Shown here piece by piece: positions 7,376 to 51,422 of a stretch of 64,000 bases of DNA. Each line of letters opens with the position of its first letter. Position 1 is the first letter of the stretch. This DNA is from a virus, in the IMG/VR virus record IMGVR_UViG_3300042398_001385, positions 89,315 through 153,314 of that record. One strand, written 5' to 3'. Below the pieces are notes generated by a model. It did no database searches and was not told the origin of the DNA. It saw only the letters and a list, made by a program, of their open reading frames with translations. The translations under genes were made by a program, and so were the position numbers.

Positions 7376-7999
7376 TCAATCATTAAAAGTCAAATTAACA
7401 CCAGGAAACATATCCCTAACTTTTAATCTCGCTCTTCTAATTCTTGTAGCAATGGCTCTTTTCTTCATACCATACTTATCTGCTATTTCCTGATATTTCA
7501 TTCTAAGGATCTCCCTATCAAATAATATATCTTTGTATATTTCTGGGAGATCATTCATTCTTTCTATAACATTGTCGTATAAATCCTCCATTTCGTCATT
7601 TTCTACAGAAATAAAATCGAAATCAGATTCGAATGTTACCGGGGATCTTCTTATTGATGCTGTATTATATTCTTCAGAGTCATCATTATTTTTTACTACC
7701 TCTTGTATAATAGGCATGTATCTGTCCTCGTTCTTTTTTATAACTAATGATTCGTTTTTAGCTATATTATAGATCCACGTGGAAAAGTTCCCTCTTGCTG
7801 AATCATATTGGGATATCTTTGTCCATATTTTAGCCATTGTATTAGACACTGCATCTTCTGCTGATTCTTGCTCTATTAATATAGATCTACAATGTTTTAA
7901 TAACCCCGGTTTAATTCTTTTATATAATTCAACAAAATCTTTCTCTGATGATGTTCTCATAAAACTTTCTGCCAATTCCTGAATATTCTTTGCCGCCAT
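7376..7999 (-). CDS. Sigma-70 family RNA polymerase sigma factor
   Basis: A 207-residue sigma factor of ECF-like size. Region 2 occupies about residues 20-95 (FVELYKRIKPGLLKHC, then AEDAVSNTMAKIW and the aromatic-rich GNFSTWIYNIAKN used in -10 recognition and melting). A variable acidic linker follows, and region 4 is at about 150-200 (LREIL-type segment then YQEIADKYGMKKRAIATRI, a helix-turn-helix). It probably directs host RNA polymerase to a class of phage promoters. T4 uses a sigma-like factor (gp55) for late TATAAATA promoters, and boxes of that kind precede many structural genes here. That link is inferred, not shown. Confidence 0.85.
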   Translation of the reverse strand: MAAKNIQELAESFMRTSSEKDFVELYKRIKPGLLKHCRSILIEQESAEDAVSNTMAKIWTKISQYDSARGNFSTWIYNIAKNESLVIKKNEDRYMPIIQEVVKNNDDSEEYNTASIRRSPVTFESDFDFISVENDEMEDLYDNVIERMNDLPEIYKDILFDREILRMKYQEIADKYGMKKRAIATRIRRARLKVRDMFPGVNLTFND

Positions 8000-34407: not shown

Positions 34408-35475
34408 TTATTTATGAAATCTATCGAAAGAATTTTTAGATATTTTATTGAACCGTACTTTGCCAATAAATTCTCCTATTGTTAAACAGTCGGTATAACT
34501 CATTGCAGACCTTAGATAATCATTAAAATTTTCACACCATCCAGATAGTGTATATTCAACCTGTTGCATTTTAGATATTCCCTCGGATGTTTTAATCTCC
34601 CCCCTTCCTAAACTTTTTTGAGCCTCTTTAGTAGACATTCCTCTAAACTTTTTAAAGAATTTTCTTCCAGCTTCAAATTGTAAAAGTACATCTATTGAAT
34701 ATTGATCTACCTTATCTCCTGGCTCTGTCCAAGAATCGTATTTTTTATTTCCTTCGAATGTTTCACCGCAGCTTTCTAAAGCTTTATTAAAGATACTTCC
34801 TAGCATCACATAATCAGCTCCTAAACCTAATGCTTTTATAACGTCAGCATATTTTTTAAATCCTCCATCAGCAACGATTTTAGTTGAAAGATTTCTTTCT
34901 TTTTGTATTTTAGCAGTATCATGTATTAGAGAAGCCATTGGATATCCAACACCTGTTTGCACAGTGGTTAAACATCCAGCACCGTTACCTATACCCATTC
35001 TAACATAGTCTGCACCAGCATTTGATAAGGAAAGAAAGGTATGGGGGTTAGCACAATTACCAACCATGATAACAAGAGAAGGCCCGTATATTTTTTTTGA
35101 CTCCTGTACTAGTTCCTTAACTATTTCCATGTGTCCATTGGCTATGTCTATTAAGGCGTACATTCTTTTTCCTAAAGGAATACTTATATTATTTTCTATA
35201 AATACTCTCCTAAAGTCATCTAATCCGTATGAATACCATACTTTGTAATCAGTAGAAAAATAGTCTAATGGGTAATTTACAGGAAGTCTTGGTATTATTC
35301 CGTATATCTTATTATCATTGAATATTGTAAAATTGTTTTTGTCTATTACTGTATCCATAGGAGCAGTAAAAATCGGGAGCATTTGTTTTTCGTCGAAGGG
35401 ATCTACTTTTTTTCTAGATCTAATACTAGTATGGATTTCCGGCTCTATAAGAATATCATCAAAATCGAATAACAT
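34408..35475 (-). CDS. IMP dehydrogenase / GMP reductase family enzyme
   Basis: A 355-residue TIM-barrel nucleotide oxidoreductase. FDDILIEP and the APMDTV strand near the N-terminus, the glycine-rich GADYVRMGIGNGAGCLTT with the catalytic Cys (about residue 185), VADGGFKKYADVIKALGLGADYVMLG (phosphate site, about 210-235) and EGISKMQQVEYTLSGWCENFND are typical. No CBS domains are present, so it is nearer GMP reductase in length (about 350). It interconverts GMP and IMP/XMP. Carriage by a phage suggests reshaping of guanine pools, maybe for salvage or a modified base. Confidence 0.82.
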   Translation of the reverse strand: MLFDFDDILIEPEIHTSIRSRKKVDPFDEKQMLPIFTAPMDTVIDKNNFTIFNDNKIYGIIPRLPVNYPLDYFSTDYKVWYSYGLDDFRRVFIENNISIPLGKRMYALIDIANGHMEIVKELVQESKKIYGPSLVIMVGNCANPHTFLSLSNAGADYVRMGIGNGAGCLTTVQTGVGYPMASLIHDTAKIQKERNLSTKIVADGGFKKYADVIKALGLGADYVMLGSIFNKALESCGETFEGNKKYDSWTEPGDKVDQYSIDVLLQFEAGRKFFKKFRGMSTKEAQKSLGRGEIKTSEGISKMQQVEYTLSGWCENFNDYLRSAMSYTDCLTIGEFIGKVRFNKISKNSFDRFHK

Positions 35476-37362: not shown

Positions 37363-39024
37363 ATGATAAAGACATTCGACGGGTATTTTGATATCAATGA
37401 AGACGTTGCAACTGCTAAGGTGTGGTTATTAAAGAATGCAGCAAAAAATAGTAAAAGATCCCGATCTGGTGAAAAGGTAACATTTACACCAGAAGAGGAA
37501 AAGAAAATATTAAACGATCCCAGATATACAGAAATTAGAGACTATCTAATAAAAATAAATAAGCCGGGATTGGTATATCCATTTACTTATTTTATTATAG
37601 AAGAGAAACTACCCAGATTCAATCAGAAAGATTCGGAAGGAAATTATGATAAAAGAGCATTTACTGTAGAGAATCTATTGGATCTATATTTACAAGCAGC
37701 ATCAAATTTTTCTATATTTCCTTTACCTCTAGGAAGCATTAGTAATTATATAAAAGAGAAGGAACTAAAAAAATCTAATACCCCTGCTTACGAGGTTCTT
37801 TTTTCTGATCTGGAAAATATTCTTTCAATGAAAGGATTAAAAGGATTTGTAGATAAAATACAATCCAAAGACGTTAGAGATGAATTTAAAAGAGCTGTAC
37901 AATTAGGTGATAAGGATCCGGAGATGAAAGCATTATTAGACACCTTATATGATTCTTACAAAGCTTTTAAAAACTTGGCACCTAAGGTAGATATGCTAGG
38001 GGTTTCTCACACTCCCGAATCTGGAATACTTAAAGGATCTAAAAAATATTTAGATGAATACAATCTTCACAAATTTCAAAACCCACAAGAAAGATTTGCT
38101 ATGTTTGTGGATGATTGTAGAAAAAAAGTCGAGGGATGGGATACAGGTATAGAGGATTTTCTTATAGAGATAGAAAATATATCTCCTTCAATAAAGCTAT
38201 TATACAGTGATCCTTTTTCGAAAGTTGTTGTGACATCCTCAAGATCAGCAAAAGGAATGGAGGAAGTATGTAAGATCTCTAATGCAGATTTATGTATATT
38301 GAGCCCAGCAAACTTCTGGTCGATAACAGGGGGACATTTACAAATATCCATTAACATGATGGATCTTTCAAAAATGGATCTTAAATACCTAACTACATTT
38401 ACAGTTGCTCCTAGTGGAAGGATAAAAGAAGCTAGAACAAGGGTTAATATGTCAGCGCCACAGCCTTGTAAGCCAGGAGAAGACTATAGAGATTTTATAC
38501 CTAGATATTTACCAGAAATAAATTACGAGGAAGTAGTAAAATCAATAGAAAGAAATTTCTCTACTGAGTTAACAATTAAAAAATTAGTACAAATACTAGA
38601 ACAAAAATCTAATAATGAAAGAAGATCTTTTGTTTTATTATTAGGTAGTATGGAAGTACAAAGATCTATAGAAAATGGAGATTACACCAAAAAAGAGATG
38701 CTAGATTACAAGGAACTTATAATAGAAATAATTACAAGAGATAATAAAATAACATATGAAAGTATAGTTGATGATTTTAAATCTGCAGGTGGATTATTTA
38801 TGGCTATGTCCGATATAGATCTTTTTAAGTCTATTACACAAGGAGAATATAAAAAATCTGACGTATTAGATATAATAAATCTTACAAAAGAGGGAATAGA
38901 GCACCTTAAGGATTTTTTAGAACAACTGGAAACATCAGGAGATCCTAATGTTATTAGACTTGCTAAACATTTATTAGATACAAATCCTCAAGTAATTGAA
39001 TACGCAGAAAGAATACTACTATAA
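37363..39024 (+). CDS. Capsid-targeted paralogue 1 of a two-gene family
   Basis: A 553-residue protein. The N-terminus MIKTFDGYFDINED fits the head-targeting pattern (INE before D). The rest is colinear with the next gene: shared AKxWLLK(N/T)AA, FTPEEEKKIL, GLVYPFTYF, FPLPLG, SxRSAxGM.xVCKISNA, F(D/S)TEL.IKK and a near-identical ending (NP/HP-x-V-x-EYAE-x-(I/V)LL). No catalytic motif was recognised. The two genes form a plus-strand pair that was duplicated in tandem. Possible internal head proteins injected with DNA; inferred from the leader only. Confidence 0.65.
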   Translation: MIKTFDGYFDINEDVATAKVWLLKNAAKNSKRSRSGEKVTFTPEEEKKILNDPRYTEIRDYLIKINKPGLVYPFTYFIIEEKLPRFNQKDSEGNYDKRAFTVENLLDLYLQAASNFSIFPLPLGSISNYIKEKELKKSNTPAYEVLFSDLENILSMKGLKGFVDKIQSKDVRDEFKRAVQLGDKDPEMKALLDTLYDSYKAFKNLAPKVDMLGVSHTPESGILKGSKKYLDEYNLHKFQNPQERFAMFVDDCRKKVEGWDTGIEDFLIEIENISPSIKLLYSDPFSKVVVTSSRSAKGMEEVCKISNADLCILSPANFWSITGGHLQISINMMDLSKMDLKYLTTFTVAPSGRIKEARTRVNMSAPQPCKPGEDYRDFIPRYLPEINYEEVVKSIERNFSTELTIKKLVQILEQKSNNERRSFVLLLGSMEVQRSIENGDYTKKEMLDYKELIIEIITRDNKITYESIVDDFKSAGGLFMAMSDIDLFKSITQGEYKKSDVLDIINLTKEGIEHLKDFLEQLETSGDPNVIRLAKHLLDTNPQVIEYAERILL

Positions 39025-41175: not shown

Positions 41176-41217
41176 AATCTTAAATTTTACATACTGGACA
41201 TTGTATTTATCTTTTTG

Positions 41218-41290
41218 TTTTCCCCCAAGGGTTCGAACCTCGATTCTGTGGACCAAAACCACATGTCCTGCCAATTAGACGAGAGGAAAA
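41218..41290 (-). tRNA. tRNA-Gln (TTG)
   Basis: A cloverleaf with anticodon loop TTTTGGT in a TGTGG/CCACA stem and T-loop TTCGAAC. It is the last gene of array 1. Acceptor TTTTCCT pairs with GGGAAAA. Confidence 0.93.
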
Positions 41291-41295
41291 TATGA

Positions 41296-41367
41296 GCTTT
41301 TGACGGGGATCGAACCTGCGACACCTTCATTACAAGTGAAGTGCTCTACCAACTGAGCTACAAAAGC
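41296..41367 (-). tRNA. tRNA-Thr (TGT)
   Basis: Anticodon loop CTTGTAA in a CTTCA/TGAAG stem, with standard D-arm and T-arm. Acceptor GCTTTTG pairs with CAAAAGC. Confidence 0.95.
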
Positions 41368-41371
41368 ATGG

Positions 41372-41445
41372 GGTGACAGAGGGGAATCGAACCCCCGACC
41401 TTCTGAACCACAATCAGACGCTCTAACCAACTGAGCTACCGTCAC
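41372..41445 (-). tRNA. tRNA-His (GTG)
   Basis: Anticodon loop TTGTGGT in a TCTGA/TCAGA stem. Acceptor GTGACGG pairs with CTGTCAC and position 73 is C, the normal histidine discriminator. Confidence 0.94.
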
Positions 41446-41447
41446 AG

Positions 41448-41520
41448 TAGCGAGTGGCAGGTTCGAACTGCCGACCTTTGGGGTATGATTCCAACGCTCT
41501 ACCAACTGAGCTAACTCGCC
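41448..41520 (-). tRNA. tRNA-Met/Ile2 (CAT)
   Basis: Anticodon loop ATCATAC. Sequence differs from the other CAT tRNAs in this window and looks like an elongator Met tRNA. Whether C34 is modified to lysidine cannot be read from DNA. Confidence 0.85.
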
Positions 41521-41527
41521 ATATAAG

Positions 41528-41600
41528 TGGAGTAGATGGGACTTGAACCCACATCCTCTTCCTTGCAAAGGAAGCGCTCAGCCAATTGAGCTACTACCCC
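41528..41600 (-). tRNA. tRNA-Ala (TGC)
   Basis: Anticodon loop TTTGCAA in a CTTCC/GGAAG stem, with normal D- and T-arms. Confidence 0.95.
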
Positions 41601-41604
41601 GTGG

Positions 41605-41677
41605 AGCGATAGACAGGATTCGAACCTGCGACCCCCGACTTGGAAGGACGGTGCTCTACCAACTGAGCTACTATCGC
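41605..41677 (-). tRNA. tRNA-Gly (TCC)
   Basis: Anticodon loop CTTCCAA. The sequence after discriminator base 73 reads CCA (41602-41604), so this gene may encode its own CCA end, unlike most of the others. Confidence 0.92.
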
Positions 41678-41681
41678 ATTT

Positions 41682-41732
41682 AGAGACGTGTGGAATTACG
41701 CATCCACTTCAACCGTCGGACTGTCCGTCTCT
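41682..41732 (-). ncRNA. Compact three-way-junction RNA between tRNAs
   Basis: A 51-base segment between tRNA-Gly and tRNA-Tyr. Its ends (AGAGACG / CGTCTCT) are complementary and enclose two hairpins, GTGGA...TCCAC and CGGA-CTG-TCCG. It is not a cloverleaf and has no open frame. Possibly a stable small RNA, like the non-tRNA RNAs in the T4 tRNA region, or a processing spacer. Confidence 0.5.
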
Positions 41733-41752
41733 ATATCTTACAGATACACTGT

Positions 41753-41836
41753 GTCGGAGCGGAGGGATTCGAACCCCCAATGCCGTAAGGCGGCTGATTT
41801 ACAGTCAGCTGAGCAGCCAATTGCTCAACACTCCGA
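41753..41836 (-). tRNA. tRNA-Tyr (GTA)
   Basis: A class II tRNA with a long variable arm (GCCTTACGGC). Anticodon loop CTGTAAA in a GCTGA/TCAGC stem. Confidence 0.93.
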
Positions 41837-41840
41837 ATTG

Positions 41841-41912
41841 CGGGGAAGGCTGGATTCGAACCAGCGACCTATCGATTAACAGTCGAGAGCTCTACCGCTG
41901 AGCTACATCCCC
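41841..41912 (-). tRNA. tRNA-Asn (GTT)
   Basis: Anticodon loop CTGTTAA with discriminator G, and a standard T-loop TTCGAAT. Confidence 0.94.
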
Positions 41913-41923
41913 AGTTTAGATTA

Positions 41924-41993
41924 GAGAATATTTGAGCGAGGTGTTTTTTGGTCAAATTTAAAAGTTCTGAGAAGTAACCCCATTCACCGCTTC
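41924..41993 (-). ncRNA. Element A: repeat shared with the Ro-upstream RNA
   Basis: A non-tRNA segment between tRNA-Asn and tRNA-Val. It contains the 23-base hairpin GAAGCGG(T)N6GGTTACTTC (41971-41993) followed by an A-rich stretch, ACACC and TTCTC. Three more copies lie at 54540-54925 upstream of the Ro60-like gene. The 23-base length and the flanking pattern are conserved. Confidence 0.6.
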
Positions 41994-42001
41994 TAATCTT
42001 G

Positions 42002-42074
42002 TAGTCCCTGAGGGATTCGAACCCCCGACATTTTGGATGTAAACCAAACGCTCTACCAACTGAGCTAAGAGACT
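42002..42074 (-). tRNA. tRNA-Val (TAC)
   Basis: Anticodon loop TTTACAT in a TTTGG/CCAAA stem. Acceptor AGTCTCT pairs with AGGGACT. Confidence 0.94.
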
Positions 42075-42082
42075 AAATGTGG

Positions 42083-42156
42083 TTGACATAGAAGGATTCG
42101 AACCTTCGGCCTTTGACGTATCAGATCAACGCTCTAACCAACTGAGCTATATGTCA
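42083..42156 (-). tRNA. tRNA-Ile (GAT)
   Basis: Anticodon loop CTGATAC in a TTGAT/GTCAA stem. It reads ATT and ATC. Acceptor TGACATA pairs with TATGTCA. Confidence 0.95.
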
Positions 42157-42162
42157 ATGTTG

Positions 42163-42248
42163 CGGAAAGAATTGGAATCGAACCAAATACCAATTAAGGT
42201 ACGCTTCGCTTAGCAGGCGAGCCCCGTCACCATCTGAGATTACTTTCC
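42163..42248 (-). tRNA. tRNA-Ser (GCT)
   Basis: A class II tRNA with a long variable arm. Anticodon loop CTGCTAA, reading AGC and AGT. Its first 9 bases overlap the end of a small open frame (42240-42377). Confidence 0.93.
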
Positions 42249-42377
42249 TTTTTTTAATATTCTCTTTATTCTTTTGAGAATTTTTTTACCAGTTGTGAAA
42301 TTAATCACATCAATTCTTAGGTTTTCCCTACTTGAAGCAAAGCTTCCACTAATTACTACTTTTTCTTTTTTATTCAT
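42240..42377 (-). CDS. Small basic protein inside tRNA array 1
   Basis: A 45-residue open frame (MNKKEKVVISGSFASSRENL, then a Lys/Arg-rich C-terminus) between tRNA-Cys and tRNA-Ser. The stop codon and the two codons before it lie inside the 5' end of tRNA-Ser, so translating ribosomes would cover the tRNA 5' end. It is the only coding-like sequence inside the arrays apart from the leaders. Basic composition suggests RNA binding, but no family was recognised and it may be a chance frame. Confidence 0.4.
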   Translation of the reverse strand: MNKKEKVVISGSFASSRENLRIDVINFTTGKKILKRIKRILKKGK

Positions 42378-42393
42378 AGGCACAATTTATTTG

Positions 42394-42464
42394 AGATCGC
42401 GACTGGAATTGAACCAGTATAGCCGGTTTTGCAGACCGTTTCCTAACCACTCGGACACGCGATC
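42394..42464 (-). tRNA. tRNA-Cys (GCA)
   Basis: Anticodon loop CTGCAAA with discriminator T, the normal cysteine identity base. Acceptor GATCGCG pairs with CGCGATC. Confidence 0.94.
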
Positions 42465-42474
42465 TTGTTTTTTA

Positions 42475-42549
42475 GAGGTTCCACCTGGATTCGAACCAGG
42501 ATCAGATCATCCGTAGTGATCCATTCTAATCCGTTGAACTATAGAACCT
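42475..42549 (-). tRNA. tRNA-Arg (ACG)
   Basis: Anticodon loop CTACGGA in a GATCA/TGATC stem. It reads CGN after A34 editing, which needs a host deaminase. Confidence 0.93.
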
Positions 42550-42554
42550 TTTTG

Positions 42555-42627
42555 CACGCCCTGTAGGAATCGAACCTACAACCTTTGGTTTTGGAGACCA
42601 ACGCTCTACCAATTGAGCTAAAGACGC
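42555..42627 (-). tRNA. tRNA-Trp (CCA)
   Basis: Anticodon loop CTCCAAA in a TTGGT/ACCAA stem, with discriminator G. Confidence 0.94.
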
Positions 42628-42768
42628 ATTTAAGGAAAGATGAAGATGGTTGCGTGGACATCATCTTTTACGATTGGCTTTACTTAGGTGTATATCTCCC
42701 AACTCCGATGATCCCAGCCGATATACACTCTCATGCTATTGGAATCATCCTTCCCCAATCAACCTTTG
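42628..42768 (-). ncRNA. Structured spacer RNA (about 140 nt) in array 1
   Basis: A segment between tRNA-Lys and tRNA-Trp with several nested complementarities: GGTTG/CAACC, GATTGG/CCAATC, a hairpin GGATGATTCC and a 9-bp stem GTGTATATC/GATATACAC. No open frame of note. It is probably a structured RNA co-transcribed with the tRNAs. Not assigned to a family. Confidence 0.45.
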
Positions 42769-42842
42769 TGATCCCGCCGGGACTCGAACCCGGGACTCCC
42801 TCATTAAAAGTGAGGTGCTCTAGCCAACTGAGCTACGAGATC
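42769..42842 (-). tRNA. tRNA-Lys (TTT)
   Basis: Anticodon loop CTTTTAA in a CCTCA/TGAGG stem. Acceptor GATCTCG pairs with CGGGATC. Confidence 0.95.
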
Positions 42843-42912
42843 ATTTTACTAAACCTATTTTTGTCTCACTAAACAAATGATGTTTAGTAATACAATTTCT
42901 TGTTTAGTATTG

Positions 42913-42985
42913 TGGTACCGGCCGGAATCGAACCGGCGACACCTAGATTTTCAGTCTAGTGCTCTACCGACTGAGCTACGGTACC
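42913..42985 (-). tRNA. tRNA-Phe (GAA)
   Basis: Anticodon loop CTGAAAA in a CTAGA/TCTAG stem. First gene of array 1, transcribed just after the leader terminator. Confidence 0.95.
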
Positions 42986-43018
42986 TTGGTTTTCCAGTAT
43001 GTCAAAGAACAAATAAAA

Positions 43019-43042
43019 AAGGCTTCGAATAATCGAAGCCTT
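43019..43042 (-). terminator. Attenuator terminator of tRNA array 1
   Basis: A perfect 10-bp stem (AAGGCTTCGA / TCGAAGCCTT) with a 4-base loop, then TTTTTT on the minus strand. It lies between the leader mini-ORF and tRNA-Phe. Its 5' arm can instead pair with GATCGAAGCT at the end of leader 1 (43075-43084 region), which would prevent the terminator from forming. Confidence 0.85.
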
Positions 43043-43072
43043 TTCCAAAATATCTAAATATGATTTTCTGTA

Positions 43073-43180
43073 TTAGCTTCGATCGGGTTCTTTCCCCTTA
43101 GCCCAAAACGCCACCGTTTGATAGCAGCCATTAATCTGACTGTTCATGCGAATGATGTTATGTTTACTACAGTTTTTCAT
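43073..43180 (-). CDS. Leader peptide 1, codon-matched to tRNA array 1
   Basis: A 35-codon mini-ORF (MKNCSKHNIIRMNSQINGCY, then QTVAFWAKGKEPDRS) between the array 1 promoter and its terminator. Its first 30 codons use only amino acids served by array 1: Lys, Asn, Cys, Ser (AGT), His, Ile (ATC/ATT), Arg (CGC), Met, Gln, Gly, Tyr, Thr, Val, Ala, Phe and Trp. All 16 array species are present and Leu is absent. Only Glu, Pro and Asp fall outside the set, in the last five codons, where GAT CGA AGC TAA also forms the antiterminator arm. This fits a ribosome-sensing attenuator leader. Confidence 0.75.
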   Translation of the reverse strand: MKNCSKHNIIRMNSQINGCYQTVAFWAKGKEPDRS

Positions 43181-43189
43181 TGTTTTCTT

Positions 43190-43221
43190 TATTATATATC
43201 TCTATTCCGATATTGTTTCAC
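43190..43221 (-). promoter_or_regulatory. Promoter of tRNA array 1
   Basis: GTGAAAC (43215-43221) and TATATAATA (43190-43198) separated by 16 bases, on the minus strand, about 10 bases upstream of the leader ATG. The same spacing and boxes occur before array 3, and close variants occur before array 2 and the Ro-upstream RNA. Confidence 0.65.
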
Positions 43222-43268
43222 AAAATTAGAATAATTATTCCAGATAAAAAAATGATTTTTGATATTTT

Positions 43269-43715: not shown

Positions 43716-44234
43716 TTAAATTAAAAATTTAATAATTTTATCCTTAATTCCTGACTGTTTTATCCCCTCATTATAAGGTTTGGTAGTCATTACAAAGTTT
43801 TCTAGTTTAGAAAGATTCATATCATCTACTGCCACCCAATGTGTTACCTCTGGATGGTTTTTAAGCCATTCTTTAATCTCTGTAAAACGAATAGCTTCGT
43901 AAAGATTTTTCCATTTGAAAAGTCCAAAACCATTCTCGTCGAAATCTTTCATATTAGGTGTAAGATCAATTGGGGGTTTAATTCCACGGGTAACATACAT
44001 CTTTTTCATTTGTTCAAGATTACCCCAGTTTTTCCAATCGGAAGAAATAACAATCTCGCATCCTGTTTCTTCGATAATTTGATTTAGAACTTTAACAGCT
44101 TTAGAATCAAAGCTATCCATTCGAATATCCAAAGGGGTTTCTGGGTTACTATCGTATCCCTTCTTTTTGAATCGTCCTCCCCATTGTGAGGAAAGACAGA
44201 TTACTCCATCATGATCTAAAAATAAAACTTTCAT
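43716..44234 (-). CDS. HAD-fold phosphatase, RNA-repair type candidate
   Basis: A 172-residue HAD superfamily protein starting at MKVLFLDHDGV (ATG 44234). A start 12 bases upstream would lie inside the tRNA gene. Motif I is LDHDGV (nucleophile and general acid Asp, residues 6 and 8), motif II is VISSDWK (about 66-72) and motif IV is WVAVDDMN (about 142-149). The short form with FLD-x-DGV and SSDW resembles the HAD domain found in Swiss-army-knife RNA repair proteins, which would remove phosphates at RNA ends. Position directly behind tRNA array 2 supports a tRNA-related role; inferred. Confidence 0.7.
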   Translation of the reverse strand: MKVLFLDHDGVICLSSQWGGRFKKKGYDSNPETPLDIRMDSFDSKAVKVLNQIIEETGCEIVISSDWKNWGNLEQMKKMYVTRGIKPPIDLTPNMKDFDENGFGLFKWKNLYEAIRFTEIKEWLKNHPEVTHWVAVDDMNLSKLENFVMTTKPYNEGIKQSGIKDKIIKFLI

Positions 44235-44235
44235 G

Positions 44236-44309
44236 TGGTCCCTCACGGGCTCGAACCGTGGACCTACTGATTATGAGTCAGTTGCTCTAACCTGCTGAGC
44301 TAAGGGACC
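44236..44309 (-). tRNA. tRNA (CAT), Met or Ile2, copy in array 2
   Basis: Anticodon loop CTCATAA in an ACTGA/TCAGT stem. Differs by a single base from the copy at 49153-49226. The GACTCATAATC context resembles lysidine-type Ile2 tRNAs as well as Met tRNAs, so the amino acid is uncertain. Confidence 0.88.
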
Positions 44310-44315
44310 TTTTTG

Positions 44316-44395
44316 TACCTTCGGAGAGACTCGAACTCTCACGCTTTCGCACTAGATCCTAAGTCTAGCGTGTCTACCAATTCCACCACGAAGGC
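44316..44395 (-). tRNA. tRNA-Leu (TAG)
   Basis: A class II tRNA. Anticodon loop CTTAGGA in a CTAGA/TCTAG stem, reading CTN codons. Confidence 0.94.
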
Positions 44396-44401
44396 ATTTA
44401 G

Positions 44402-44474
<73 letters not shown>

Positions 44475-44480
44475 ATATTG

Positions 44481-44554
44481 CGGTCCTAGCGGGACTCGAA
44501 CCCGCGATCTCCGCCGTGACAGGGCGGCGTCCACTCCAACTGGACTGTAGGACC
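44481..44554 (-). tRNA. tRNA-Asp (GTC)
   Basis: Anticodon loop CTGTCAC in a CCGCC/GGCGG stem, with discriminator G. Confidence 0.95.
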
Positions 44555-44640
44555 AATTTGTTACTTATTCTCCTACCCTTTTATTTCGTAACCAACCTGC
44601 TTATCTTTAAATACGAGTTTCTCAAGGGTACAGGTTGTAG
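44555..44640 (-). ncRNA. Structured spacer with H-type pseudoknot potential
   Basis: Between tRNA-Glu and tRNA-Asp. On the minus strand AACCTG and TACCCTT are followed in the same order by CAGGTT and AAGGGTA, so the two stems interlock as a pseudoknot. A GTTAC/GTAAC pair adds a third stem. No open frame. Confidence 0.4.
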
Positions 44641-44712
44641 TAGTCGGTACGGGATTCGAACCCGTGTGACAAGGATGAAAACCTTGTATCCTGACCCCTA
44701 GATGAACCGACC
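44641..44712 (-). tRNA. tRNA-Glu (TTC)
   Basis: Anticodon loop TTTTCAT in a CAAGG/CCTTG stem. Acceptor GGTCGGT pairs with ACCGACT. First tRNA of array 2. Confidence 0.94.
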
Positions 44713-44720
44713 ATAAAAAA

Positions 44721-44803
44721 GGAATAAGGCAGGACCTACGCTCTGTCTTGCATTCCATCTCAAGAGCTGCCTAATACCAGTGGGTTAGTGGTTACCTTAT
44801 TCC
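44721..44803 (-). ncRNA. Three-way-junction RNA at the start of array 2
   Basis: An 83-base segment closed by a perfect 9-bp stem (GGAATAAGG / CCTTATTCC), with internal hairpins ACCA...TGGT and GCTCTTG...CAAGACAGAGC, and TTTTTT directly after it on the minus strand. It is not a cloverleaf. It lies between the array 2 attenuator and tRNA-Glu. Confidence 0.5.
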
Positions 44804-44838
44804 TAATTTCAATATTTCAAAGAGCGTATAAAACAAAA

Positions 44839-44863
44839 AAACCTCTGAGGTTATCAGAGGTTT
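44839..44863 (-). terminator. Attenuator terminator of tRNA array 2
   Basis: A perfect 10-bp stem (AAACCTCTGA / TCAGAGGTTT) with a 5-base loop, then a run of T on the minus strand. The 5' arm CCTCTGA can pair with TCAGAGG at 44891-44897 in the leader, and an inner TTAAATTA/TAATTTAA stem stacks under it. Confidence 0.88.
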
Positions 44864-44884
44864 AAATTATATCGTTATATTAAT

Positions 44885-44974
44885 TTAATTCCTCTGACAC
44901 TTAAATCTATCCTCTAGAAGTGAATCTTCTTTACGAAGAGTAAAATCTGTTGCGATATTTAAAAAGTGTTTCAT
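44885..44974 (-). CDS. Leader peptide 2, codon-matched to tRNA array 2
   Basis: A 29-codon mini-ORF (MKHFLNIATDFTLRKEDSLL, then EDRFKCQRN). Array 2 encodes Leu(TAG), Asp, Glu, fMet and a CAT tRNA. The leader has four Leu (three as CTN), three Asp and two Glu, with seven of codons 13-22 being Leu, Asp or Glu. The last codons TGT CAG AGG AAT TAA contain the arm that pairs with the terminator. Same layout as leaders 1 and 3, though its codon bias is weaker than theirs. Confidence 0.65.
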   Translation of the reverse strand: MKHFLNIATDFTLRKEDSLLEDRFKCQRN

Positions 44975-44994: not shown

Positions 44995-45026
44995 TATTAT
45001 ATACTCCAAAAGTACAGAAAAGTTTC
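44995..45026 (-). promoter_or_regulatory. Promoter of tRNA array 2
   Basis: GAAAC (45022-45026) and TATATAATA (44995-45003) on the minus strand, 18 bases apart, about 20 bases upstream of leader 2. Confidence 0.55.
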
Positions 45027-45905: not shown

Positions 45906-46262
45906 TTAAAGCATATTAGATAAAATGTGATAAAGACTATCGCATTCATAATCCATATCGCTTAATTCTAAATTTCTTCCGTTGTACATTATAGTTGATT
46001 CATTAGTATCAACAGTAACAGATTTTCCAATAATCCAAGCTACTATTACACCAGGTTTAATCTCTCTGACGTTTTCAACAAAGGATTTATCAGGAAATCC
46101 TGATGGGTCTTTATATCCAATAGCTCTATAAATGCTGTCCAGTGATGCTCGATCTTCTTTTTTTTCGTATCCAATAAATCTTTTTCCAGCACTTACTGCT
46201 TTTTGAAGCAGAGAAGGTTTTTTAAACTGATTAAAATCCTCGAATATTTTTAGGTGCTTCAT
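45906..46262 (-). CDS. Capsid-targeted protein
   Basis: A 118-residue protein starting MKHLKIFEDFNQFKKPS. The head-targeting core is clear, though no LxE site follows closely. The body is alpha/beta (KPGVIVAWIIGKSVTVDTNE). GATATATAAATA lies 10-20 bases upstream, including the exact box TATAAATA at 46272-46279. Function unknown. Confidence 0.6.
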   Translation of the reverse strand: MKHLKIFEDFNQFKKPSLLQKAVSAGKRFIGYEKKEDRASLDSIYRAIGYKDPSGFPDKSFVENVREIKPGVIVAWIIGKSVTVDTNESTIMYNGRNLELSDMDYECDSLYHILSNML

Positions 46263-46712: not shown

Positions 46713-48326
46713 TTATAATTCAAGCATGTCATAAACGTCCTTATATCCGTACTTTTTAGCCCCTCTATTCATTGCTATTAGATATGATCCAATGTTTAAA
46801 AGATCAGGAAATACTGGACTGTCTACTAATCTATCAGCTATCTTACCGGCAGCTTCTTCCCATTCTGGGCTTTCTTTCTTTTTAATAATAATATCCTGTA
46901 AAATTTCTAGTTCTTTACGGTTATCCTGGAGGAACTTTCCTATCCATGAAGTTTTAAACGCTTGCTTTATGTCGAACAGTAGGTACTTATTGAAATAGTA
47001 ATACTCACCTATGTATTCATTGCTCCTTTTAGCCATAACTTCTTTTTGTTCTGGAGTTCCGTAACTGTATCGTTCAGGTCTTGTGTATTCAGGGTGAGAC
47101 TCAAAATCTCTATCTAACTCAGATTCTAATTTATTCGGATCCCATGAATCCATACTTAACGCGTGTTCATCCGAATTATTCCAAATGAAACCTGCAGTCT
47201 CATCGAACTGTTTCATTGAAAATTTAGGAGTAGCTATGATCTTGCAAACCATCGTCATGTATCGTAAGTAGTTGCGCACAACTTCTTTGTCGAAAGGATC
47301 TTCTGTATGATCATTTGATAAATATTTCACACAAGCTTTCAAGTAATCTTTGCTGAATCCTCTATGAGCTTGGTACTCCTGTTCTTCTTTCTTGATGTCC
47401 AAGTTTTTGTACTGAGATCTTTTAATCTTCCCTAGACTCATAAAATCTTCCCAGTTCGTTTGTCCCTTCTCAAGATTGTACCATTTAGAACCCCAGTGTA
47501 GTCCACTTTTTCTGATGTCTTCCCTGTCTTGTAAATCTCTCATCTCACTGTCAAGATTATCATCGGTTGAGTAGTGAGAGCCCCCACTAAACGTAGTGTA
47601 GCCCATAGCTTCTATCGCATTGTTGGCATCTTGCAGCTCGTAATCGACAATATCTCCTTTTATCTTCAAGAAATAAATTTGGTTTCTGTTCTCAGCTGTT
47701 TTAGACACAAACTCCCTAACTTCTTCCTCTGCTTCAGGTAAGTAAAGAACTACTGTACCGTCAGACACTACCAAGCTCTTGTCATAGTAAGTGTCTATAG
47801 CAAAGAGACTGGCAGGTTTTCCGTTAGTCTTGATCATAGATTCTCCGGGCATCAAGTAGATGTACTTGTTACCTGTCCAGTTTCCACCTGAGTGAGAAGA
47901 AACTACGTGGTTCAACGTAAAGTGTTTTGTCCATCTGGTGGAATGAGCATCTATCATCCATTTTCTAAAAGTTTCAAAGTCCTTGTAGTGAGGTTCTTCC
48001 TTTATCCATGTATTTTCAGGGTCGTTGATGTCATCATTGTACTTCTTCTTGAGGTACTTCTCGAAAGAGTCATTGAAGCCTACGCTCTTTAGAGCTTTTC
48101 CTGTGTGAAGTATCATATCTTTACCACGAAGTGTGGGAAGCTCATCTGAGGATCTAATAAAAACTAAGTTCTTCCAATCAATAGCTACTATACCATCTTC
48201 CTTAAAATCCAGTTTGTCCACAGGTTCTCCAACTTTAGGTAATTCACTAATATTATTAATTATTTTAGAAGCTTTTGATAGGTATTCAAAAACAAACTCT
48301 TCGAATAATTTTATGTACTTTTTCAT
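46713..48326 (-). CDS. Large capsid-targeted protein
   Basis: A 537-residue protein starting MKKYIKLFEEFVFEYLSK, a good match to the shared head leader. Residues about 125-205 contain TRWTKHFTLNHVVSSHSGGNW, then YLMPGESMI and PASLFAIDTYY, a pattern that looks like an enzyme core but that I cannot assign. T4 packages an ADP-ribosyltransferase (Alt) of comparable size, so an effector delivered with DNA is a reasonable guess. Its GC-richer codons in the middle third differ from neighbours. It shares a bidirectional AT-rich promoter region with the plus-strand gene at 48365. Confidence 0.6.
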   Translation of the reverse strand: MKKYIKLFEEFVFEYLSKASKIINNISELPKVGEPVDKLDFKEDGIVAIDWKNLVFIRSSDELPTLRGKDMILHTGKALKSVGFNDSFEKYLKKKYNDDINDPENTWIKEEPHYKDFETFRKWMIDAHSTRWTKHFTLNHVVSSHSGGNWTGNKYIYLMPGESMIKTNGKPASLFAIDTYYDKSLVVSDGTVVLYLPEAEEEVREFVSKTAENRNQIYFLKIKGDIVDYELQDANNAIEAMGYTTFSGGSHYSTDDNLDSEMRDLQDREDIRKSGLHWGSKWYNLEKGQTNWEDFMSLGKIKRSQYKNLDIKKEEQEYQAHRGFSKDYLKACVKYLSNDHTEDPFDKEVVRNYLRYMTMVCKIIATPKFSMKQFDETAGFIWNNSDEHALSMDSWDPNKLESELDRDFESHPEYTRPERYSYGTPEQKEVMAKRSNEYIGEYYYFNKYLLFDIKQAFKTSWIGKFLQDNRKELEILQDIIIKKKESPEWEEAAGKIADRLVDSPVFPDLLNIGSYLIAMNRGAKKYGYKDVYDMLEL

Positions 48327-49054: not shown

Positions 49055-49059
49055 ATTTG

Positions 49060-49143
49060 TACCCGGAGAGGGACTTGAACCCTCACGACCAAATGGCCAA
49101 CAGATTTTAAGTCTGTCTTGTCTACCTATTCCAACATCCGGGC
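49060..49143 (-). tRNA. tRNA-Leu (TAA)
   Basis: A class II tRNA with a long variable arm. Anticodon loop CTTAAAA, reading TTA/TTG. Acceptor GCCCGGA pairs with TCCGGGT. Confidence 0.94.
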
Positions 49144-49152
49144 AGACTTTTG

Positions 49153-49226
49153 TGGTCCCTCACGGGCTCGAACCGTGGACCTACTGATTATGAGTCAGTT
49201 GCTCTAACCTACTGAGCTAAGGGACC
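49153..49226 (-). tRNA. tRNA (CAT), Met or Ile2, copy in array 3
   Basis: Identical to the copy at 44236-44309 except for one D-loop base. Anticodon loop CTCATAA. Confidence 0.88.
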
Positions 49227-49230
49227 TAAG

Positions 49231-49304
49231 TAGAGACGACGAGAGTCGAACTCGTGACCGCATGCGTATAAGGCATGTGCTCTAACCAATTGAGCTACGC
49301 CTCT
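49231..49304 (-). tRNA. tRNA-Ile (TAT)
   Basis: Anticodon loop CTTATAC in a CATGC/GCATG stem. It reads ATA, the rare isoleucine codon, by a T34 rather than the usual bacterial lysidine route. Confidence 0.93.
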
Positions 49305-49311
49305 ATGGCTG

Positions 49312-49384
49312 TCGGGATACCAGGACTCGAACCTGGGGCCTCCTGGTCCCAAACCAGGCGATCTACCAACTGATCTACATCCCG
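49312..49384 (-). tRNA. tRNA-Pro (TGG)
   Basis: Anticodon loop TTTGGGA in a CCTGG/CCAGG stem. Acceptor starts with C1-G72, as is usual for proline. Confidence 0.95.
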
Positions 49385-49551
49385 AAATTGTATGTCTTTA
49401 AGTATCACCAGAACATACAAACTGTGCCAACCAACGATTTGGAGAATAAGTGTGCATAACATTAAAGAATACCAAGGTATCCTACCTGTCTACGGTGTAG
49501 AGGCCTATTCCATCTTCGATCCATGCCCAGCGCTAGGCAGAGGGATTTGTG
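49385..49551 (-). ncRNA. Structured spacer RNA (about 165 nt) in array 3
   Basis: Between tRNA-Arg and tRNA-Pro. Contains a perfect 8-bp hairpin TTGTATGT/ACATACAA (49388-49420), a hairpin around GCCTAGCGCTGGGC, and a self-complementary ATACCTTGGTAT. No convincing open frame. Probably a structured RNA co-transcribed with the tRNAs. Confidence 0.4.
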
Positions 49552-49625
49552 TGATCCGAGCAGGATTCGAACCTGCGACCTACTGCTTAGAAGGCAGTTG
49601 CTCTATCCAGCTGAGCTATCGGACC
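49552..49625 (-). tRNA. tRNA-Arg (TCT)
   Basis: Anticodon loop CTTCTAA in an ACTGC/GCAGT stem, reading AGA/AGG, which are preferred Arg codons in this AT-rich genome. Confidence 0.95.
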
Positions 49626-49631
49626 AAATGG

Positions 49632-49717
49632 CGGAGAGGGCGAGATTCGAACTCGCGGTAGCTTTCACTACGTCGGTTTTCAAGACCGGTGCATTAAACC
49701 AACTCTGCCACCTCTCC
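49632..49717 (-). tRNA. tRNA-Ser (TGA)
   Basis: A class II tRNA with a long variable arm (GTAGTGAAAGCTAC). Anticodon loop CTTGAAA, reading TCN. Discriminator G. First gene of array 3. Confidence 0.94.
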
Positions 49718-49747
49718 AATTCATCATTATTTCAAAGACCATAAAAA

Positions 49748-49773
49748 AACCGGGACTTTTAAAGGTCCCGGTT
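49748..49773 (-). terminator. Attenuator terminator of tRNA array 3
   Basis: A 9-bp GC-rich stem (AACCGGGAC / GTCCCGGTT) with a short loop and a 7-base T-run on the minus strand. Its 5' arm plus loop CGGGACCTTT is complementary over 10 positions to AAAGGTCCTG at the end of leader 3. Confidence 0.9.
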
Positions 49774-49798
49774 TTTTAGTTTATAGTTATAGTTAAAA

Positions 49799-49873
49799 CT
49801 AACACAGGACCTTTAGAGATCGTCTTATCGACGGTCTTAATATTATAGGTAATATGTTAAGTGTTTTGTTCAT
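49799..49873 (-). CDS. Leader peptide 3, codon-matched to tRNA array 3
   Basis: A 24-codon mini-ORF (MNKTLNILPIILRPSIRRSL, then KVLC). Codons 7-20 consist only of Ile (four, all ATA), Leu, Pro, Arg (AGA, AGA, CGA) and Ser (TCG, TCT). Array 3 encodes exactly Ile(TAT), Leu(TAA), Pro(TGG), Arg(TCT) and Ser(TGA), plus a CAT tRNA. The last codons CTA AAG GTC CTG TGT TAG carry the antiterminator arm. Strong candidate for a ribosome-sensing attenuator leader. Confidence 0.75.
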   Translation of the reverse strand: MNKTLNILPIILRPSIRRSLKVLC

Positions 49874-50492: not shown

Positions 50493-51422
50493 TCAATTAA
50501 TTCTTTTTTTACCTGCTATAGAATCCCATATGTTTCTACTTTTTGTAGCTATGGCTTTTCCCGTTGGTGCTAATCTATCCTGTACTGTTTTAAGAGCGTC
50601 TTGTGTGTCTTTCTTTAATCTAGCGCCAAACACATTTCCTTTTCTTATCCCCTTATCGATCATTTGTGTCATTTTTTCCATTCCATCATCAATAGTTTTG
50701 TTAATAGGAACTTTAAGATTGTCTAATGTATTTTGACACACTTTATAAAAGTCTTCTATATTTTGTCCTATATTAATTGATTTTACACCAACCTCTTTTG
50801 CTGTACCATAAACACAAGAACTTAAAAATTCAGGTATTGTTTTAAATGATGAAGTCGATGATTTATAAGATCCTACAGTTAATACTGATACAGCCTCTGA
50901 AGCTTTTGGCGAAGATTCTGCTAATTTATAAAGATCTTTAAGAACCATTTTAAATAATCCGGATGAATCTTCCTTCATACTATTAAAGGTCTCTTCTCCT
51001 TTATCAGTGTAATATTTATTTATTCTGCTAAAAGTGTATATAACGCTTAATCCTGCTGTGATTTCTCCTTCTTTAACATAAGAAAAAATAGACGAAGCTA
51101 GAGTCATTATTCCGTCTGCAACTGCTTCAGAAACAACATATATCCCGTCAGGCGTAAAAACTAGGGTCTTATCTTTTTTTTCTGCTATTTTTAAAAGCGT
51201 AGCTCCTATCTTCTTATTACTTTCATTAATTGAATCAGCATAAGCTTTCATTCCGCTTCCTACACACAAGAAATTATATTCCCTCCCGCTTATAGTTGTA
51301 GTTTTTACATCTTTTAATGTTCTATACAGAAGTTTATTATCTATATCAAACAGTTTTGATTTACTGTCTGTAATTTCGCTTTCAAATAAAACGAAATCAT
51401 TAAAGTCTAAAATCTTATTCAT
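50493..51422 (-). CDS. Capsid-targeted protein
   Basis: A 309-residue protein with leader MNKILDFNDFVLFES (LFE then S as the likely cleavage site). The body is mainly helical with a Ser/Thr/Lys-rich composition and a basic C-terminus (LAPTGKAIATKSRNIWDSIAGKKRIN), consistent with a DNA-associated internal protein. No catalytic motif was recognised. Confidence 0.62.
   Translation of the reverse strand: MNKILDFNDFVLFESEITDSKSKLFDIDNKLLYRTLKDVKTTTISGREYNFLCVGSGMKAYADSINESNKKIGATLLKIAEKKDKTLVFTPDGIYVVSEAVADGIMTLASSIFSYVKEGEITAGLSVIYTFSRINKYYTDKGEETFNSMKEDSSGLFKMVLKDLYKLAESSPKASEAVSVLTVGSYKSSTSSFKTIPEFLSSCVYGTAKEVGVKSINIGQNIEDFYKVCQNTLDNLKVPINKTIDDGMEKMTQMIDKGIRKGNVFGARLKKDTQDALKTVQDRLAPTGKAIATKSRNIWDSIAGKKRIN

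Follow-up and report, generated by a model that had tools for sequence, protein, structure and literature searches.

Why phages carry tRNA genes has been debated for decades, the proposed answers being codon compensation, replacement of degraded host tRNAs and evasion of tRNA-cutting immunity. The locus presented here raises the question of what a short ORF and an intrinsic terminator are doing ahead of a phage tRNA array. We consider it very probable that each array is an operon of its own, controlled by ribosome-mediated transcription attenuation which senses the array's own tRNAs; a given set of tRNAs is probably produced by the virus only in cells that are running short of it. No expression, RNA or ribosome data stand behind this model, and transcription–translation coupling in these hosts is assumed by it.

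Three tRNA arrays and their common layout

The window (the whole stretch of 64,000 nucleotides analysed here) represents the final 64 kb of a 153-kb viral record, which encodes a T4-type terminase. Its 26 tRNA genes are grouped into three arrays, all on the minus strand, which combined serve 20 of the 20 amino acids. Each array is preceded by the same order of elements: a TAnnTTTG promoter element, a short ORF, an intrinsic terminator and a boxA-like site (TCTTTGAMATAHTG). The boxA-like motif occurs at three sites in the window, one ahead of each array, with 0.49 expected by chance. These features are as follows:

41217-42985, minus strand: tRNA array 1, 15 tRNAs
42995-43008, minus strand: boxA-like TCTTTGACATACTG ahead of array 1 (motif count)
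43014-43047, minus strand: terminator of attenuator 1
43073-43180, minus strand: leader 1 ORF, MKNCSKHNIIRMNSQINGCYQTVAFWAKGKEPDRS
43221-43228, minus strand: promoter element TAATTTTG of leader 1
44235-44712, minus strand: tRNA array 2 (Glu, Asp, Met-CAT, Leu-TAG, Met-CAT)
44810-44823, minus strand: boxA-like TCTTTGAAATATTG, on the array 2 side of the terminator (motif count)
44839-44863, minus strand: intrinsic terminator of attenuator 2, 10 bp followed by a U tract
44852-44869, minus strand: antiterminator 3' arm, including most of the terminator 5' arm
44881-44899, minus strand: antiterminator 5' arm, overlapping the leader 2 stop codon
44885-44974, minus strand: leader 2 ORF, MKHFLNIATDFTLRKEDSLLEDRFKCQRN, 29 codons
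44909-44938, minus strand: putative control codons 13-22 of leader 2, L R K E D S L L E D
45007-45014, minus strand: Bacteroidota-type -7 promoter element TACTTTTG of leader 2
49059-49717, minus strand: tRNA array 3 (Ser-TGA, Arg-TCT, Pro-TGG, Ile-TAT, CAT, Leu-TAA)
49725-49738, minus strand: boxA-like TCTTTGAAATAATG ahead of array 3 (motif count)
49744-49777, minus strand: terminator of attenuator 3
49799-49873, minus strand: leader 3 ORF, MNKTLNILPIILRPSIRRSLKVLC, with all Ile codons ATA and with AGA and TTA codons
49910-49917, minus strand: promoter element TATATTTG of leader 3

Leader 1 includes all 15 of the 15 amino acids of array 1 and shows a pN/pS of 0.16 among its homologues. In L118 and L120 the codons of leader 1 are kept in full although most of the array tRNAs have been lost, so the leaders lag behind the losses in their arrays. 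In leader 3, nearly all residues of the run LNILPIILRPSIRRSL are amino acids of array 3, and four of its four Ile codons are ATA, matching the Ile-TAT tRNA of this array.

A sigma-70 promoter scan of the window was uninformative (27 found vs. 30.5 expected), which is why the Bacteroidota promoter element was used instead. As a phage promoter motif upstream of the leaders, TATATAATA was rejected, since it is not enriched (8 found vs. 5.2 expected). When 25 kb of the window were compared with GenBank phages by megablast, only tRNA fragments were returned. A long inverted repeat, GGAATAAGG..CCTTATTCC, lies between boxA and tRNA-Glu of array 2 (44713-44800, minus strand); it is present in the window and in L003 and absent in most relatives, and it is possibly an inserted or degenerate RNA element.

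Leader 2 and its predicted RNA switch

The sequence-only reading had placed a Leu/Asp/Glu-rich leader before a Leu/Asp/Glu/Met array, and both are found as it described them: the ORF is present at 44974-44885 on the minus strand, the array has the composition listed above, and seven of the ten codons 13-22 (CTT CGT AAA GAA GAT TCA CTT CTA GAG GAT) are those of Leu (CTT, CTT, CTA), Asp or Glu. The binomial P for this stretch is 0.0018 at genome frequency, the stretch being chosen post hoc, while in the complete leader Leu, Asp and Glu make up 9 of 28 residues vs. 22% expected, which is not significant (P 0.16). The composition of leader 2 alone was therefore rejected as proof; because this leader is statistically weak on its own, the whole kind was tested, and the case rests on its relatives and on the other arrays. 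At nine related loci the homologues of leader 2 are altered in sequence while the codons for Leu, Asp and Glu are kept; in the versions found in close relatives (MQQFLNIATEVQLDRLEDIGKCQRN, MQQFLNIVQVQLDLLEDIGKCQRN and MKHFLNIEMDLQLLKGDERLEDTNKCQRK) these codons are retained together with the KCQR tail, which forms an RNA arm.

The same reading had set a 10-bp terminator stem in competition with a 15-bp antiterminator. The stem is confirmed at 44863-44839, and the antiterminator pairing exists, its length being 17 bp, i.e., two more than claimed. In this pairing, TGTCAGAGG and TTAAATTA are joined with TAATTTAA and CCTCTGATA; the partners are the tail of leader 2 with the sequence just past its stop, and a stretch that includes the terminator 5' arm, the stop codon falling within the antiterminator 5' arm. 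Its energy of -17.6 kcal/mol (z -4.7) beats 300 of 300 dinucleotide shuffles.

Leader 2 was folded under a mask the size of a ribosome, assumed to cover 15 nt on the 5' side and 12 nt on the 3' side of the A site. For A-site positions at codons 2-22 the terminator had a probability of 0.0, which rose to approximately 0.9 from codon 23 on and to 0.95 at the stop; without a ribosome, it was 0.09. The predicted switch point lies between codons 22 and 23, directly past the Leu/Asp/Glu stretch. Leader 2 is the only leader of the window with a full fold switch even at equilibrium, and the earlier statement that it has a weaker codon bias than leaders 1 and 3 and the clearest RNA switch was right.

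Leaders and arrays in other phages

Related contigs were located via the neighbouring HAD protein and a UvsX-like protein, and tRNA searches with the fetched regions revealed that the layout of the window arrays recurs in about 20 of them. In total, 28 independent leader/array families were collected, including the cultured Cellulophaga phage phi4:1, Lak phages and uncultured phages of 460-640 kb. In the distant phages, both the arrays and the leaders are different and the match still holds: the leader is MKTQFTYNCNQMPEQGNKGDYMDTDLG for an array of Cys Asn Glu Lys Tyr Gln Asp Gly, MTTSFQQQQQQQINRTD for four Gln tRNAs, MKTTIKNTSSRSRSSKSGEVRLYS for an Arg/Ser array and MKAISVHIIHIWEHLLEEVNINIM for His Glu Val Trp Leu. 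In phage phi4:1 (KT962245) there are three sub-arrays, each with a leader of its own: MKIQRLHLQELEQPIISGGTGV for Pro Glu Gln His Leu Leu Arg, MQLTKTGITVIDKTKGARAYLGDTVIG, located within Phi4113_075, which is annotated as a hypothetical protein, for Ala Lys Ile Gly Met Asp Thr Val Arg, and MKTNYCTYNNSNWSFSYDTGSVCTLGSDGLIG for Tyr Ser Asn Trp Phe. The TAnnTTTG element is present within 110 nt upstream of 20 of the 28 independent leaders (vs. 5.7% of random segments), and a boxA-like site follows the terminator in 44 of 70 leaders.

The leaders were chosen by a rule which is blind to composition: the terminator had to score 22 or more and lie no further than 450 nt ahead of the first tRNA, and the longest ATG ORF ending nearby was taken. 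A GTG leader of phi4:1 is the single manual addition. This rule superseded an early count, in which a few alternative ORFs had been dropped by hand, and the outcome was the same. In 27 of the 28 clusters the leader has every amino acid of its array, Met excepted, while the +1 and +2 frames of the same DNA give full coverage only in 3 and 6 clusters, respectively. The mean share of matching residues is 0.515 vs. 0.315 expected, and none of 200,000 permutations of leaders among arrays reached the observed coverage or residue share (own-array match 5.60 vs. 0.04 permuted, sd 0.50). A second cohort came from a scan of viral contigs for places where the boxA-like motif stands behind the U tract of a terminator; a tRNA lay within 300 nt at 50 of the 63 loci found, and of 17 leader clusters unrelated to the first 28, full coverage was seen in 13, with 0 of 100,000 permutations matching the observed value. 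The window supplied the background frequencies for these statistics, and full independence cannot be claimed for the clusters, some of which are distantly related. Attenuation by a leader matching the downstream tRNA array, as the sequence-only reading had proposed for array 2, is supported for the three window arrays and for more than 40 further leader families.

The same script found no leader in T4 and two Vibrio phages with tRNA clusters, in Mycobacterium, Streptomyces, Salmonella, Stenotrophomonas and gut Phass-1 phages with tRNA clusters, or in Sphingomonas phage PAU, which has tRNAs. No tRNAs are present in Tenacibaculum phage PTm1 or Flavobacterium phage MaF61, which were the closest cultured relatives by terminase among those tried. 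No convincing leader was found at 20 host tRNA loci from one Flavobacterium and one Bacteroides genome: of the three ORF-terminator pairs detected there, two lack an amino acid of their own tRNAs, and the third has a 16-codon ORF which overlaps a tRNA gene and contains a single Glu codon.

Arrays with only one isoacceptor class permit a comparison of codon classes. The class of the leader codon agrees with the array isoacceptor in 96 of 120 codons (60 expected), the agreement being 45/52 for Ile (p 3e-5), 17/19 for Arg (p 0.001) and 23/30 for Leu (p 0.007), with no agreement for Ser. CGN codons make up 6.5% of the Arg codons of the window, yet they are 8 of 9 in the leaders ahead of CGN-only arrays. 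Codon usage of this kind suggests that what is sensed is the tRNA isoacceptor and not the amino acid.

The RNA side of the system was compared across the same families. In 10 of the first 12, the antiterminator duplex outscores its shuffled versions (combined P 3e-12), and the antiterminator 5' arm sits at the leader stop codon. Equilibrium folding favours the terminator whatever the ribosome position, except for leader 2 and a few others, and was rejected as a test of switching for most families; the antiterminator must therefore be assumed to form first, during transcription, and folding of the nascent RNA up to the terminator loop was used instead. Under this procedure, in 28 of 28 clusters a ribosome stalled upstream is predicted to allow the antiterminator (0.57-0.98) and a ribosome at the stop to block its pairing (0.00-0.27). 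Cognate codons are enriched before the switch point (375/632, 213 expected) and remain at background level past it (62/212, 67 expected), the contrast having a p of 2e-14; the excess peaks approximately 21 to 8 codons before the stop, with none in the last seven. Compensatory changes were found in two families, CAGAGG/CCTCTG to CCGAG/CTCGG in leader 2 of L104/L105 and CTGGG/CCCAG to CTAGGC/GCCTAG between L111 and L116, and in both they span the leader tail and both terminator arms. In the leader 2 family the pairings were compared by segment, as MAFFT misaligned the shifted terminator of L104/L105.

Proposed control, its alternatives and the neighbouring genes

What can be read from the DNA itself are the parts, the match between codons and tRNAs, the pairings that exclude each other and where these lie with respect to the stop codon; stalling and readthrough are inferred, and so is leader translation, on which the frame-specific match and the pN/pS of leader 1 bear only indirectly. 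We suppose that RNA polymerase initiates at the TAnnTTTG promoter and transcribes a short leader ORF with codons for the array tRNAs. With all these tRNAs supplied, the ribosome would reach the stop and cover the antiterminator 5' arm, the terminator would form and the array would be off. Should one array tRNA be scarce, i.e., uncharged, cut by a host nuclease or below demand, the ribosome would stall at its codon upstream and leave the 5' arm free, permitting the antiterminator to form and the array to be transcribed, until the newly made tRNAs relieve the stall and transcription of the array ends. The boxA-like site may help polymerase across the long untranslated array, which is also an inference, and host tRNA loss during infection is the inferred natural trigger.

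The anatomy of these leaders is the same as that of the trp and his attenuators, and an amino-acid shortage would also stall the ribosome at these codons; classical amino-acid attenuation, with starvation or general charging sensed and the tRNA array merely a regulated output, has thus to be weighed. We find it unlikely, because the codons match the array isoacceptor (Ile ATA/ATY, Arg AGR/CGN, Leu TTR/CTN), which is unneeded for starvation, because up to 17 different array amino acids are represented per leader, and because tRNA output cannot relieve an amino-acid shortage. The switch could also be real and respond to another trigger, for example a general slowing of ribosomes caused by translation inhibitors or phage shut-off; the mixed codons would then merely hold the ribosome to an average pace. 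Leaders such as window leader 1 and L026, in which 15-20 different amino acids occur, would indeed answer any global slowdown. However, narrow leaders (Gln-rich; Arg and Ser; Glu and Tyr) precede equally narrow arrays, and the isoacceptor match holds, which makes such a trigger quite improbable.

A further suggestion is that the peptide itself is functional, its composition being selected so that its translation needs the tRNAs of the array, which would make it a product and not a sensor. The conservation of leader 1 at the protein level agrees with this, but the families have no sequence in common beyond a short N terminus, near-homopolymeric leaders exist (QQQQQQQ ahead of a Gln array), and the matched codons end where the antiterminator arm starts; we hold this suggestion very improbable. 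That the elements are leftovers, the hairpin being the upstream gene's ordinary terminator and the ORF a product of chance, may be argued from the non-significant composition of leader 2 and from the fact that ORFs of approximately 29 codons are common. This argument is barely tenable after the permutation and frame tests on the 28 plus 17 families, which refute it statistically; moreover, the placement relative to the stop codon is conserved, promoters lie directly upstream of the leaders, and no such leaders precede host tRNA loci or occur in the control phages.

The preferred reading, attenuation which senses the array's own tRNAs, has well-known counterparts, since the E. coli trp and his operons are ribosome-mediated transcription attenuators (Elf and Ehrenberg 2005, PMC1183508). 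As there, the phage loci have a promoter-proximal leader ORF with regulatory codons, a terminator and a competing antiterminator, whose 5' arm would be masked once the ribosome gets to the stop codon. Unlike there, the output is a tRNA array, the control codons cover from one to approximately 17 amino acids and follow the array isoacceptors, and several operons per phage divide the genetic code among themselves. T-box riboswitches sense uncharged tRNA directly; they resemble the proposed phage system in having tRNA status as the input and terminator readthrough as the output, and differ in that the phage leader would sense via the translating ribosome. A T-box/Stem I covariance search of the window with the T-box riboswitch (RF00230) gave no match. 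The Rfam search of the window gave nothing but tRNAs above the gathering score, and none of the amino-acid leader families (Trp, His, Leu, Phe and others) matched at either threshold; the best leader match at the attenuator was Phe_leader (RF01859) with 20.7 bits and E 0.41 against a gathering score of 55, a weak resemblance in shape.

Phage tRNAs are able to overcome tRNA-cutting immunity (PMC10264068, PMC11555353), and this rescue depends on the phage tRNA promoter (PMC11555353). The genes are of the same class as here and the purpose is plausible for the present arrays; the difference is that those papers describe neither a leader nor an attenuator, while here a missing tRNA would induce expression. 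A full-text search found no published leader-peptide control of phage tRNA genes, which is not proof, since subscription papers and preprints were mostly outside its reach. The class of mechanism is known; what appears new is its target, the multiplex sensor specific for tRNAs and how far it has spread among phages. We think it likely that these loci represent a widespread and undescribed class of phage operons. Multiplex leaders that sense the isoacceptors of their own arrays would place the tRNA genes under feedback control, and the arrays would function as an inducible tRNA rescue, with depletion of the host pool or tRNA-targeting immunity as the trigger and with the arrays guarding separate parts of the code.

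A leader which reports the supply of the very tRNAs encoded after it tells when the phage wants them, namely at shortage, and the question of what phage tRNAs are for is now directly testable in the cultured phage phi4:1. The leaders give a readout of the tRNAs exhausted during infection, and attenuation is extended by them from amino-acid enzymes to the decoding machinery.

One gene lies directly 3' of array 2:

43716-44201, minus strand: HAD_SAK_2, an RNA-repair-type HAD phosphatase (Swiss Army Knife RNA repair; PF18143, E 3e-19)

The match to a family named for RNA repair fits a role in coping with tRNA damage, which proves nothing; the gene is kept in 29 related contigs, many of them without tRNAs nearby. 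A TROVE-domain (Ro60-like) protein is also encoded near the tRNA arrays (52835-54466, minus strand; PF05731, E 2.7e-8). Elsewhere on the minus strand of the window are a phage-encoded ECF-type sigma factor (Sigma70_r2 and r4, 7376-7999) and an IMP dehydrogenase/GMP reductase homologue (34408-35475). Many unrelated proteins (45906-46262, 46713-48326, 50493-51422, 51722-52141, 37363-39024 and others) share a similar N terminus, such as MKHLKIFEDF, MKKYIKLFEEF or MNKILDFNDFVLFESE, which resembles the capsid-targeting propeptide of T4-like phages; the N terminus of leader 2 is MKHFLNI.
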